Assembly: GCF_000940805.1 (NCBI RefSeq)
Contig: NZ_CP007142.1
Location: 4,688,593 to 4,752,592 of the forward strand
Direction of reading: 5' to 3'
Length of the DNA stretch: 64,000 nt
Origin: Gynuella sunshinyii YC6258
GTDB lineage: Bacteria; Pseudomonadota; Gammaproteobacteria; Pseudomonadales; Natronospirillaceae
Part shown: positions 21,546 through 26,323 of the stretch, piece after piece
How positions within the stretch are numbered: the first letter of the stretch is position 1
How the letters are laid out: each line of letters starts with the position of its first letter
Translations under genes and position numbers: made by a program
Notes under the pieces: generated by a model
What the model saw: only the letters and a program-made list of their open reading frames with translations
The model's database searches: none
Told to the model about the DNA's origin: nothing

Positions 21546-22007
21546 CTAAACGGCTCTCACCAGAGAAGTTGCCACTCTACGCTGCTCATCTGTTGCCATG
21601 TTAATCAGATGCTGCATCAATTCACGACACTTCTCGGAGCGGGCTTGATCACGCGCTGCACGCAACCCCTCCAACACAACACCATCCACCTCGAGAGCCC
21701 GGCTGAGAATGCTGTCGACGTCATTAATGTTCACACATTCGAGCTCTCCAGCCAGATCACGCCCACTCCACTCAGGCGTGTATTCAAGGCTCATATCAGA
21801 AAAACCATTCAATTGATCTTTGGCAGCTCTAAGAGTTTCCGCCATCCGGATTTCATGTCGATTTAAATACTCAAGCAGCCACAGTGTTTTTTCAGAAGTC
21901 ACCAACAACTCCAGCTCCTGATATTTTTCGGACAACGTACCATGTGTCTGACTCGCTGATTCAATCAAATCAAGCAATGTCTTATATCTCATTTTAGGCC
22001 TCGTCAT
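21546..22007 (-). CDS. Hypothetical helical protein
   Basis: A 153-aa, almost entirely helical, acidic product with no signal peptide. It has Leu- and Glu-rich segments (QELELLVTSEKTLWLLEYLNRHE; a C-terminal MATDEQRRVATSLVRAV). The spacing of E/H residues could suit a four-helix bundle, but I cannot assign a family. ATG 21992 (MRYK…) is an alternative start. It lies downstream of, and on the same strand as, the persulfide-dioxygenase-like gene with a 128-base gap. Confidence 0.7.
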   Translation of the reverse strand: MTRPKMRYKTLLDLIESASQTHGTLSEKYQELELLVTSEKTLWLLEYLNRHEIRMAETLRAAKDQLNGFSDMSLEYTPEWSGRDLAGELECVNINDVDSILSRALEVDGVVLEGLRAARDQARSEKCRELMQHLINMATDEQRRVATSLVRAV

Positions 22008-22135: not shown

Positions 22136-23002
22136 TTAACACCTGATATTCAGCGGTATTTTCAAGTAGCGTGAACCATTACTCTCGATTTTTGGCAGCC
22201 TACCCGCCTCAATATTGACCAGCAAACTCTGGTATATCAATTTCGGAGCTGCCAGAGTTTTATCTCGATCACTACGAAAACTGACGTACTCATCAGCACT
22301 CGTTTGCATATTCAGCTGTATATTATGATGCTTTTGCGCAGCGATGGTTGACTCATACTTCAACGCCCGACCATTGGGAAGATAGTCATGACCTGTAAAC
22401 ACCCGGGTCTCGCCTGGTAACTGATATAGACGCTGAATAGAGTAATACATTTTTTCCGCATCACCGCCCGGAAAATCACAACGTCCTGTACCATAATCCG
22501 GCATAAACAGCGTATCACCAGTAAATACAGCATCGCTGATCAGGTAGGATAAACAGGCTGGTGTATGACCTGGTGTATATAAAGCCTTCACCTCAATGCT
22601 GCCAGCTTCAAATACTTGATCGTCATCAATTAACAGGTCGAATTGCGAGCCATCCGTTAAGAACAGTTCATCCAGATTATAAATACCTTTAAAAACATCC
22701 TGCACAGCAGTGATATGCCGACCAATAGCTACTTTTACAGCGGGATAATCTTTCTTAAATAATTGAGAAGCACTTAAATGGTCTGCATGAGCATGAGTTT
22801 CCAACACCATCCTTAACGTTAACTGCTGCTGCTCAATATAGGTTTTGACACGCTGATAGGAGGTATCTTTTATAATCGAACCAATCGGCTCATAGTCCAG
22901 CACCGGATCAATCACAATCGCATCCCGAGTGATTTGATCAGACACCACATAGGTTAATGTGTAAGTCTCTTCATCATAAAAAGCTTCGATATGTATTTTC
23001 AT
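22136..23002 (-). CDS. Metallo-beta-lactamase-fold persulfide dioxygenase-like protein (Blh type)
   Basis: A 288-aa MBL-fold enzyme. Metal ligands are visible: THAHADH with His70, His72, Asp74 and His75; His146 in YTPGHT; Asp163 in FTGDTLF; His205 in FTGHDY. The RCDFPGG segment after GTG matches ETHE1/Blh persulfide dioxygenases rather than glyoxalase II or β-lactamases. These oxidise glutathione persulfide to sulfite. Its ATG overlaps the SulP stop (TAATG), so the two are coupled. The sigma54 promoter upstream of SulP should drive it. Confidence 0.88.
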   Translation of the reverse strand: MKIHIEAFYDEETYTLTYVVSDQITRDAIVIDPVLDYEPIGSIIKDTSYQRVKTYIEQQQLTLRMVLETHAHADHLSASQLFKKDYPAVKVAIGRHITAVQDVFKGIYNLDELFLTDGSQFDLLIDDDQVFEAGSIEVKALYTPGHTPACLSYLISDAVFTGDTLFMPDYGTGRCDFPGGDAEKMYYSIQRLYQLPGETRVFTGHDYLPNGRALKYESTIAAQKHHNIQLNMQTSADEYVSFRSDRDKTLAAPKLIYQSLLVNIEAGRLPKIESNGSRYLKIPLNIRC

Positions 23003-24693
23003 TATTTGATCTCCGCTACTTGTCTTTCTCGGGCAACGATAACTGCATCATGAGTGTTATTGAAGAAATGATCCGACCCTACTCGCTGAACAAACCCTGA
23101 TCTGGACATGACGTCCAAAACAGGACCTTTAACATAAGAGAAATAAAATTCGATTTGTTTGACCCGGTATTCATCCAGCAGTTCATGCAATGCCGTATCT
23201 GCCGATGAATCCAATTGATTGATCGAACATGCATCGATCACCACTGCATGAACCTTTCCTTCCGTGTCATGAAGATGTTTTTTGATTGTCTCTTTCAAAA
23301 AAGAGACGTTGCCATAATAAAATTGAGCATCAAACCTCAACACCAGGACACCATTATCTGTTTCTACTGAATGTCGCAACACATTCCGATAGTCTCTGGT
23401 ACCAGGTAAACGACCAAGCACTGCATAATGAGGCCGGGTTGTTTTCACCACAAACCATAATAGAGAAGCACCGATACCAATAAAAATTCCCTCTTTGACA
23501 CCAATAGTAAGCGTGGCAATAAATGTAAGCCCCAACAATCCCAAGTCTTCCTTCTTTACCTTCCATAAGTGTTTTATTTCTTGGAAATCCACCAGACTCG
23601 CCACAGCCAGCATGATTATCGACCCCAGAATGGCCTTAGGAATGAAATAGAAAAGCGGGGTAAAAAATACCAATGCTATTGCAATAACCGCTGCGGTAAT
23701 TAATGACGCTAAAGCCGTGTTGGCCCCCGCACTGTTATTCACTGCTGTGCGGCCAAATCCACCAGCCACAGGCATTGCTTTAAAAAAAGAAGCGACAATA
23801 TTTGCAATACCCAGTGCAACCAGTTCCTTATTTGCATCAATCTCGTAGCGTTTTTCCCGAGCAATTTTTCTGGCAACAGCAATCGATTCGATAAATCCCA
23901 TAAAAGCTATTGTTAAAGCTATTGGCAACAATGATAGCCATTGAGAGGAGTCAACATCGGGCACTGAAAATATCGGTAATCCGGGTGGTACCTGACCAAC
24001 TGTTCTCACCCCCATGTGATCCAGATTCAACCCCCATACCAGTAGCGTGGAGATAATGACGACGATCATCGGTCCCGGTAGTAGTGGACTGATCTTTTTT
24101 AAGACTACCAATAAAATCACGCCCCCCAACCCAATCACCAGCGTAGGAAGATGTATCAACGCTAACTGCTGAATTGTCAGATGAATGATCTTCGCAATAT
24201 TCTCAGTTCGAGGTAGAGAAATCCCCAACAAATGCCCCAATTGAGAAAAACCGATAATCAAAGCTGCTGCAGATGTAAATCCGCTGATTACAGGATGGGA
24301 CATAAAGTTGGTTATAAACCCCAACCGCAACGCCCCCATTAAAAATTGAATAACTCCGACCATGAGTGACAAAAATATTGCCAACACAACATACTGCTCG
24401 GAGCCGGCATCTGCCAACCGACCAACCTCACTGGTCACCAACAAAGCAATCATGGCGGCTGGCCCAACAGCCAACTGCCGGGAAGTGCCGAATATCGCAT
24501 ATGCGACTATGGGCAAGATGGAAGCATATAAACCAATAATAGGGGGAAGCCCGGCCAAAAGTGCATATGACATTGCCTGAGGAATTAACATCATGCCTGT
24601 AGTTAAGCCGGCAATAACGTCACCTCGTAAATTCGGGCGCTGATAAACTGGCAACCATTCCAGTATCGGCACCCATCGTGACAGTGAACTCAT
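23002..24693 (-). CDS. SulP-family anion transporter with STAS domain
   Basis: A SLC26/SulP permease of about 563 aa. The signature near the N-terminus is GDVIAGLTTGMMLIPQAMSYALLAGLPP, and about 10-12 hydrophobic helices follow. A cytosolic STAS domain is at the C-terminus (VVIDACSINQLDSSADTALHEL). Substrates in this family include sulfate and bicarbonate. Coupling to a persulfide-oxidising enzyme favours sulfate/sulfite handling, possibly export. I use ATG 24693; an in-frame TTG at 24708 adds five residues, and the AGGAG at 24711 fits neither perfectly. Confidence 0.88.
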   Translation of the reverse strand: MSSLSRWVPILEWLPVYQRPNLRGDVIAGLTTGMMLIPQAMSYALLAGLPPIIGLYASILPIVAYAIFGTSRQLAVGPAAMIALLVTSEVGRLADAGSEQYVVLAIFLSLMVGVIQFLMGALRLGFITNFMSHPVISGFTSAAALIIGFSQLGHLLGISLPRTENIAKIIHLTIQQLALIHLPTLVIGLGGVILLVVLKKISPLLPGPMIVVIISTLLVWGLNLDHMGVRTVGQVPPGLPIFSVPDVDSSQWLSLLPIALTIAFMGFIESIAVARKIAREKRYEIDANKELVALGIANIVASFFKAMPVAGGFGRTAVNNSAGANTALASLITAAVIAIALVFFTPLFYFIPKAILGSIIMLAVASLVDFQEIKHLWKVKKEDLGLLGLTFIATLTIGVKEGIFIGIGASLLWFVVKTTRPHYAVLGRLPGTRDYRNVLRHSVETDNGVLVLRFDAQFYYGNVSFLKETIKKHLHDTEGKVHAVVIDACSINQLDSSADTALHELLDEYRVKQIEFYFSYVKGPVLDVMSRSGFVQRVGSDHFFNNTHDAVIVARERQVAEIK

Positions 24694-24762
24694 TATTTTC
24701 AAACCCAAAACTCCTATATAGCCAAAGGAGTACTTAAATTATAGATGGTTAGCTAATTAAGA

Positions 24763-24779
24763 GAGCAAACGAAATGCCA
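24763..24779 (-). promoter_or_regulatory. Sigma54 (−24/−12) promoter of sulP-blh
   Basis: On the reverse strand the bases TGGCATTTCGTTTGCTC fit the sigma54 consensus TGGCACG-N4-TTGCW, with the invariant GG and GC at exact spacing. The start of transcription would be near 24752, 59 bases before the SulP ATG. The sigma54 activator gene is directly upstream. Confidence 0.8.
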
Positions 24780-24842
24780 ATGACAGATTGGCATAAAATG
24801 GCGGGAGTCATCAGTTCAATAAACAGAAATGAAACACTTTGA

Positions 24843-24860
24843 TGCAACTCGCACGTTGCA
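24843..24860. promoter_or_regulatory. Candidate activator-binding palindrome (UAS)
   Basis: TGCAAC-N6-GTTGCA is a perfect dyad centred about 100 bases upstream of the predicted sigma54 start, where enhancer-type sites usually lie. A further half-site TGCAAC occurs at 24952-24957. I propose it binds the activator encoded next door. Confidence 0.55.
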
Positions 24861-24962
24861 TTGAAACGTAACCATGAAACATATCGCAATTATCCGACTC
24901 ACAAAAGAAAACAACATCTCCAGAAAAATGAATGTTTTCTTTGAGATCAGATGCAACGATGA

Positions 24963-25916
24963 TCAGTCGATACCGTACAACTTGAGTTTACGCCACAGGG
25001 TTGCCCGACTGATTCCGAGTTTCTGCGCGACTTCCAGTTTACGCCCCCGATAACGACGCAATAATTCCAGAATCTGATCGCGCTCATTTTCATCATCAAA
25101 ATATAATTGTTCATCCGCGGGTCCCTCCCCCTTGAGATCAGGATTCAGATCATCGAACAATAGTACGGACCCATCCCCTATCGCATGGCAATACTCTATG
25201 ACATTACTAAGCTCACGCACATTCCCTGGCCACTCATAACTCATCAGGGCATTCCAGGCCTTGGAGTCTATCGACTCAATACGCCGCTCAGATATTGCAT
25301 TGAAACGATCAATAAAATGCCAGATAAGCATGGATAGATCCTCTCCACGCTCAACCAGTTTTGGTAAAAACATCGGAATCACACGCACCCGATACATTAG
25401 ATCTTCTCGAAATGCTCCTTCCGCCACTCGTTTTCTCAATGACTGATGAGTCGCACTGATCAGACGAATGTCTGTTGTCATTAGCTGAGAGGATCCTAAT
25501 GGGGTAAAACAGCGATCCTGCAAGACCCGCAGCAACCTCGCCTGAATATCCAGTGGCATTTCCGCTATTTCATCAAGAAATAGAGAACCTCCATTAGTTA
25601 ACTCCAACAACCCCCGCCGATCATGAGTAGCACCGGTAAATGCGCCTTTCTTATGACCAAACAGCTCTGAAGCCATCAATTCCCCTGACAAAGCGGCACA
25701 ATTTACAGCACTGAACGCCCCAACGCCTCGCGGACTGCAACGGTGAATATAACGGGCGACCATTTCTTTACCAGTACCAGTCTCCCCCCGAAGCAGCACT
25801 GACGCATTGGTTCTGGCAACTTTTTCAACCTTAGCCATAAACTGCTGCATTCGTTTGGAAACGGTTAATAGCCCCTGATAGCTATGAGGTTGATATCCGG
25901 GATTGGTATGCATCAC
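24963..25916 (-). CDS. Sigma54-dependent transcriptional activator without a sensor domain
   Basis: A bacterial enhancer-binding protein of 317 aa. The AAA+ domain starts almost at the N-terminus, with Walker A GETGTGKE (44-51), the sigma54-contact loop GAFTGA (91-96) and Walker B LFLDE (112-116). A Fis-type helix-turn-helix ends the protein ([21 protein letters not shown]). There is no receiver, GAF or PAS domain, as in PspF, so it must be controlled by a partner or by level. It sits between a phosphatase-like gene (gap ten bases) and the sigma54 promoter of sulP-blh. Confidence 0.92.
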
Positions 25917-25925
25917 ACGCTACGG

Positions 25926-26255
25926 TTATCCCTGAGCAGCATTCCACAAAATGGAACTTCTGTTACCGGTTCGGCAAAATCCGAGCACTTTTCCTTTATT
26001 TGCAGATAACACTTCTTTCAAACGGGAAACATCGGCTGCACTATAGTTTGGACCGTTCATTGGAATATAGAGAAAATCCAGCCCTGCATTCTCACAAGCC
26101 ATTGCAATATCCGCTGATAACGGTTGACCTGGCTCCTCCGCATCCGGTCGATTACATACTACAGCGGTAAAATCTGCCGCTGACAGCTGAGTAACATCGG
26201 CAACAGTAATTTGCCCAGTAACAGCGAACGTATCCGTCAAATACTTGAGTTCCAT
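25926..26255 (-). CDS. TIGR01244-type CX5R phosphatase/sulfurtransferase-like protein
   Basis: A 109-aa dual-specificity-phosphatase-like fold with the signature CRTGNRS (Cys94…Arg99). In other bacteria this domain is fused to or encoded beside Blh-type persulfide dioxygenases, and some members act as sulfur transferases. I place the start at ATG 26255 because AGGAG is six to seven bases upstream; the longer in-frame start is at 26273. The sigma54 activator begins ten bases after its stop, so the two are very likely one operon. Confidence 0.85.
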   Translation of the reverse strand: MELKYLTDTFAVTGQITVADVTQLSAADFTAVVCNRPDAEEPGQPLSADIAMACENAGLDFLYIPMNGPNYSAADVSRLKEVLSANKGKVLGFCRTGNRSSILWNAAQG

Positions 26256-26323
26256 AACAATCTCCTGAATCAAACAGTAAATTTATGATCAATCAAAACC
26301 CATGATTACTATAAATTAGAAAA

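Follow-up and report, generated by a model that had tools for sequence, protein, structure and literature searches.

In the window, that is, the whole stretch of 64,000 nucleotides analysed here, a sigma-54 promoter and an activator site upstream of it very probably switch on the sulP-pdo operon, the site being a local variant of an element that recurs across the family at a near-fixed distance upstream of the promoter box. The match to the promoter, the conserved element, its near-fixed distance and the co-occurrence of element plus box with the activator gene across genomes were observed directly. That sulP-pdo has a sigma-54 promoter and an activator site upstream of it had been predicted in the first-pass annotation, and comparison with relatives was found to support this strongly. 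An enhancer element with near-fixed geometry is thereby supplied for a family of sensor-less sigma-54 activators, and the family is tied to a persulfide dioxygenase, a SulP permease and a Cys/His-rich protein without annotation. Direct tests become possible of the regulon, of the binding site and of the route by which a signal reaches a sensor-less activator.

Gene organization of the locus

The first gene of the putatively controlled operon was found to be sulP (23002..24708, minus strand), which encodes a SulP anion permease with a STAS domain (PF00916, E 2.8e-116; PF01740; TIGR00815) and starts with either TTG at 24708 or ATG at 24693. It was followed by pdo/blh (22136..23002, minus strand), which overlaps the last base of sulP and encodes a persulfide dioxygenase-like protein of metallo-beta-lactamase fold (PF00753). 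The pdo product matched NF040641 (Blh) with an E value of 1.8e-103 over the dioxygenase half and reached 346.7 bits, against a whole-protein cutoff of 625. The sulfur transferase half of NF040641 was matched by a separate gene at 25926..26273 on the minus strand, encoding a BLH_phosphatase/DUF442 sulfur transferase (PF04273, E 1.9e-26; TIGR01244 above cutoff). The two halves of Blh, which form one protein in NF040641, were found here in two genes, one on either side of the regulator and sulP. The region 3' of pdo (21546-22007) was found to encode a 153-aa protein, for which neither Pfam nor NCBIfam gave a match at 0.001.

The regulator, encoded at 24963..25916 on the minus strand in the same direction as sulP, was found to be a sensor-less sigma-54 activator of 317 aa with an AAA+ domain and a Fis-type HTH (PF00158, E 3.2e-65, residues 18-182; PF25601; PF02954). 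The listed start codon was GTG, followed by ATG as the next codon, and the motifs GAFTGA and GETGTGKE (Walker A) were present in the alignment. A gap of 9 bp separates the DUF442 gene from the activator frame downstream of it, and the two genes are probably co-transcribed. Directly 3' of the activator stop codon, an inverted repeat with 10-bp arms, AAAGAAAACA-N19-TGTTTTCTTT (24904-24942), was found, which is perhaps the terminator of the activator gene.

The probable sigma-54 promoter of sulP-pdo

The promoter of sulP-pdo was found to contain the -24/-12 element TTGGCATTTCGTTTGCT at 24780..24764 on the minus strand, with GG at 24778-24777 and GC at 24766-24765 in a TTGGCAC/TTGC context, and the predicted start lies at about 24753. 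Both doublets had been reported at exact spacing, which proved correct, with ten bases between them as in the canonical arrangement, and the element was the top sigma-54-like site of the window, scoring 15.9 on a matrix built from the sigma-54 consensus. Sites of that score were expected 0.4 times per 64 kb on both strands (40 first-order Markov simulations), which, scaled to one strand of the 254-bp intergenic region, gives 0.0008 expected boxes. The genome of the window was found to contain rpoN (PF04552, E 5.4e-71).

The -24 box is overlapped by a perfect hairpin with 8-bp arms, ATGCCAAT-N5-ATTGGCAT (24774..24794, minus strand), which is terminator-like or may be a second operator. It is quite unlikely that termination or repression is the main role of the region, with this hairpin ending the activator transcripts or binding a repressor. 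The perfect arms and the T-rich tail would suit such a role, but the hairpin contains only three G-C pairs, one terminator-like site around the box was found against 0.6 expected in shuffles, which is weak, and a hairpin can coexist with the sigma-54 promoter.

The upstream dyad and its half-sites

The dyad TGCAAC-N6-GTTGCA, the putative core of the activator (enhancer) site, was found as an exact match at 24843..24860, 62 bp from the -24 box. It had been placed about 100 bases upstream, in agreement with the centre found about 98 bases 5' of the predicted start at 24753. The activator at 24963-25916 is predicted to bind this dyad, and the sites of enhancer-binding proteins are often found 70-150 bp upstream of the promoter, as stated in the passages seen of PMC3844500. 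The arms of the dyad extend to 7 bp (ATGCAAC/GTTGCAT), and a comparable dyad (7-bp arms, spacer 4-8) was found in about 6% of the shuffled intergenic regions. The dyad alone is therefore moderately unusual and not striking, so that comparison with relatives was needed, and the arms of two neighbouring inverted repeats were found to be longer (10 bp around a 19-bp spacer, and 8 bp around a 5-bp spacer). What makes the dyad convincing is that its position and half-sites agree with those of relatives.

A cluster of half-sites was found around the dyad at 24830..24881, with TGAAACA at 24830-24836, TGCAAC at 24843-24848, GTTGCA at 24855-24860, TGAAAC at 24862-24867 and TGAAACA at 24875-24881. Within it, TGAAACA-N4-GATGCAAC (24830-24848) agreed with the element of the relatives at 14 of 15 letters, in the opposite orientation, with a spacer of 4 and at 49 bp from the box.

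The literal string was found to be a poor guide to the regulon. The first-pass annotation had proposed TGCAAC-N6-GTTGCA as an operator that could define a regulon and recommended a genome scan for it upstream of -24/-12 motifs; a scan for the string recovered the window site itself and no further one, the string occurring once in the 6.48 Mb of the genome. When up to two mismatches were allowed, 300 places per strand were found in this genome against 197 in the reversed control, mostly noise, and two in the window alone against four expected. The relaxed pattern TGCAAC-N4..6-GTTKCA gave 12 strand-hits at 8 places, one of which, the window place, had a sigma-54 box nearby, followed by a next best box of 8.1 bits. 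The window site differs from the relatives' element by more than one mismatch. Three places in its genome lay within one mismatch of that element, all three without a sigma-54 box, and the evidence from this genome is therefore the window site alone. Relatives were found to contain mostly TGMAAC-N4-GTTGMA, or more fully TGAAACA-N3-GTTGCAAC, so that a search with the literal dyad would miss the regulon, though the idea behind it was right. The window dyad sits at the position kept in relatives and shares their half-sites, with a spacer that is longer (N6 here, N5 in the sister G009 and N4 in the others).

Conserved element in the promoters of relatives

The promoter set contained 25 members, window included, taken from before sulP, pdo or CDG (the gene preceding sulP); 23 were picked by sigma-54 score (consensus matrix, relaxed at -12) and two by eye. 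A sigma-54-like hit of at least 11 bits was found in the 1500 bp before sulP at 14 of 18 copies, window included, and at the other four no hit was found. Before pdo such a hit was found at 10 of 16 copies, with none at six; the window hit (11.4 bits, 1040 bp away) was considered spurious, as pdo follows sulP there, which leaves nine of 16 convincing. The GG at -24 was conserved in all 25 promoters.

A match to TGAAACA-N3-GTTGCAAC at no fewer than 13 of the 15 letters, with spacers of 1-5 and both strands allowed, was found in 20 of the 25 promoters, against 0.001 per region in mononucleotide shuffles. In 16 promoters, 58-61 bases separated the end of the element from the -24 box downstream of it. 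Another spacing, orientation or distance was found in four that passed, namely the window, the CDG promoters of G012 and G007, and the pdo promoter of G007. The promoters below 13 letters were that of sulP in G009 (12 letters) and those of sulP and CDG in G004, pdo in G008 and CDG in G005 (11 letters each). The unified dyad TGMAAC-N4..6-GTTGMA, a pattern worded after the sites were seen, was found in 13 of the 25 promoters including the window, always 60-63 bp from the box, and in shuffled promoters with a mean of 0.01 and a maximum of one. Its spacer was 4 in 11 promoters, 5 in G009 and 6 in the window. In G443, a class-level relative whose activator is 52% identical, the activator gene and sulP are divergent and TGAAAC-N5-GTTTCA was found between them; the sole box seen there by eye, ATGGTACG-N4-ATGCA, lies 94 bp from the dyad and scores below threshold.

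The IHF-like consensus WATCAANNNNTTR precedes the -24 box by 3-4 bp in 7 of the 25 promoters (genomes G018, G020, G014, G108 and G016), as an exact match on the promoter strand, against 0.075 expected in shuffles; it was absent from the window. The doublet at -12 was GA in 14 of the 25 promoters, GT in six and GC in five. GA/GT at -12 was rejected as a novelty: TTGGCACG-N4-TTGHW was found at 28 places in 22 genomes, one of them with GC, against 15 in the reversed control, and GA/GT at -12 is therefore not specific to this regulon. The rejection also rests on the psp boxes of E. coli, which carry TTGTA in the passages seen of PMC4591121.

Co-occurrence with the activator and size of the regulon

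The element alone, with at most one mismatch, was found at 39 places in 22 family genomes against 18 in the reversed control, so about half of the places are background. A sigma-54 box of at least 12.5 bits was found within 30-110 bp of 13 of these 39, at a distance of 58-61 bp in 11 cases and of 49 bp in two (both in G007). All 13 element-plus-box places precede sulP, pdo or CDG by their coordinates, and all five exact matches of the element were among them. The fifteen activator-carrying genomes contained the 13 among their 30 places, whereas the seven activator-less genomes contained none among nine.

These results bear on whether the promoter is sigma-54 dependent while the dyad serves a repressor or some activator other than the local one, with the local activator binding elsewhere. 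Another activator could be supplied by the genome of the window, where seven proteins, counting the activator itself, matched it at E <= 1e-60, and the spacing of the window dyad is unlike that of its relatives. The reading is nevertheless very unlikely, as the position and half-sites agree with the elements of relatives, element plus box was confined to activator-carrying genomes, and the activator gene adjoins the promoter.

It is more improbable still, to the point of being nearly negligible, that sulP-pdo owes its transcription to a sigma-70 promoter or to read-through, the -24/-12 match and the dyad being due to chance: read-through is possible between the co-directional activator and sulP genes, but a box of this score is scarcely expected in the intergenic region (0.0008 times), box and element were repeated in relatives at near-fixed spacing, and a consensus scan of 24600-25050, which detects close matches only, found no sigma-70-like site.

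The regulon looks very small, as the element search in the 22 family genomes showed no targets other than sulP, pdo and CDG. The last of these was found in relatives before sulP or near the activator gene and encodes a protein of 251-264 aa without annotation (L126:7137-7922:+, with orthologues in L121, L125, L127, L128, L130, L131, L133, L175 and L176). The motifs C-[TS]-C-[IV]-D-G-R, GGS, GCGH and CHRPLK were conserved in all 10 aligned CDG proteins and presumably recall beta-carbonic anhydrases. The L126 protein had no match in Pfam at 0.1 or in the PDB at 10 and a weak one in NCBIfam (E 0.064), far below cutoff. CDG was not found in the genome of the window.

Two further sequences were found to recur in relatives. 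In L229 and L233, TTGGCACGAGTCTTGTA precedes a gene resembling ABC-transporter ATPases by 186-189 bp. TTGGCACGGTTATTGAT was present in L232, L234, L241 and L243 and is probably coding sequence, because a conserved frame, presumably FtsZ-like, starts 6 bp 3' of it in L234 and L243.

Distribution of the activator family

Fifteen orthologues of the activator were found outside its own genome among 115 genomes, with 58-70% identity and 380-505 bits, followed by a next match of 255 bits (46%) and by weaker ones of up to 50% over shorter stretches. Carriers were 15 of the 22 genomes in the family, 13 of a sample of 390 in the order (own genome included in both) and three of a sample of 369 in the class, where two were new and 50-52% identical. 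The alignment contained the 15 orthologues and two more distant relatives; in the orthologues, cut to 345 residues, no N-terminal sensor domain was found. Longer open frames, of 701 aa in G016 and 407 in G012, run into neighbouring genes, and an N-terminal extension was present in G527, a 50% relative.

A DUF442 homologue was found upstream of the activator gene at nine of 16 loci, window included (eight of 15 relative loci), and at eight of those nine a second, distant SulP (25-27% identity) lay between the two genes. Orthologues of sulP were found in 17 of the 18 genomes examined and homologues of pdo in 16, three of these being only 43-47% identical. In G017, G009 and G007, sulP and the activator gene lie on different contigs, so that their pairing is not mere neighbourhood, though the element of G009 is weak.

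Proposed activation of sulP-pdo

In the proposed mechanism, sigma-54 RNA polymerase would wait at 24780-24764 while the sensor-less activator (24963-25916) attaches to the cluster of half-sites that has the dyad at 24843-24860 as its centre. The bound activator would reach the polymerase through DNA looping, and its GAFTGA-bearing AAA+ ring would open the promoter, sulP and pdo being transcribed from about 24753. The window site would be the local form of TGMAAC-N4..6-GTTGMA, usually TGAAACA-N3-GTTGCAAC, which most of the promoters keep at a distance of 58-63 bp on the upstream side of the -24 box.

Comparison with known regulators

The nearest known systems are those of FisR in Cupriavidus and in A. 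baumannii (A1S_1707 with A1S_1708-1711), where, in the passages seen of PMC7315123, a sigma-54 activator likewise has as its neighbour an operon for a persulfide dioxygenase, for which a sigma-54 promoter is predicted. According to the same passages, FisR of A. baumannii controls the pdo-sqr operon, its deletion abolishes sulfide induction, and it contains an N-terminal regulatory domain from which the sensing cysteines known from Cupriavidus are absent (PMC7315123). The FisR systems differ in containing this domain and an operon of pdo, sqr, tauE and hsd, whereas a sulP-pdo operon and no sensor domain were found here. The AAA+ domain starts at residue 18 of 317, with no N-terminal regulatory domain before it, and identity with FisR was ruled out by this architecture. 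The FisR literature, in its titles, the beginnings of abstracts and the passages seen of PMC7315123, offered no FisR binding site for comparison. From the gene content, pdo in particular, and the FisR precedent, we infer that the operon answers to sulfide or persulfide stress.

PspF of E. coli is an activator without a sensor domain, as is the one described here, and it is under negative regulation by PspA, a counterpart of which was not seen here. Identity with PspF was also ruled out, the activator scoring 215.2 bits against TIGR02974 (PspF), half of the equivalog cutoff of 443.55, and the genes being different. The E. coli pspA and pspG boxes, TTGGCACGCAAATTGTA and TTGGCATGATTCTTGTA in the passages seen of PMC4591121, resemble the GA/GT boxes of the relatives. 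BigR/SqrR also regulates persulfide dioxygenase genes (blh or pdo); it is an ArsR-family repressor, unlike the activator here, as given in the passages seen of PMC7315123.

Among the papers listed that contain TGTTGCAAC and 'enhancer', none concerns a bacterial enhancer by its title, and no title or beginning of an abstract in the FisR, SulP, SfnR and comparative sigma-54 literature described this regulon. The promoter type and the enhancer logic are ordinary; the element and the small target set were not met in those titles and abstract beginnings.

Candidates for restraining the sensor-less activator are the co-located DUF442 sulfur transferase and the family-specific Cys136 of the activator. 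Among 16 close orthologues this cysteine was found in 14, with T in its place in L129 and E in L132; it was absent from all 49 readable distant homologues, which belong to a group of at least 80 at 38-45% identity with 31 of 80 unreadable by pattern. The residue of FleQ aligned to Cys136 was Thr, and Cys136 is presumably placed near the loops that touch sigma-54. It is possible, though unlikely, that the locus is a FisR-like sulfur-stress regulon without a sensor domain, in which sulfane sulfur would be sensed in the AAA+ engine via Cys136 or passed on by the DUF442 transferase.
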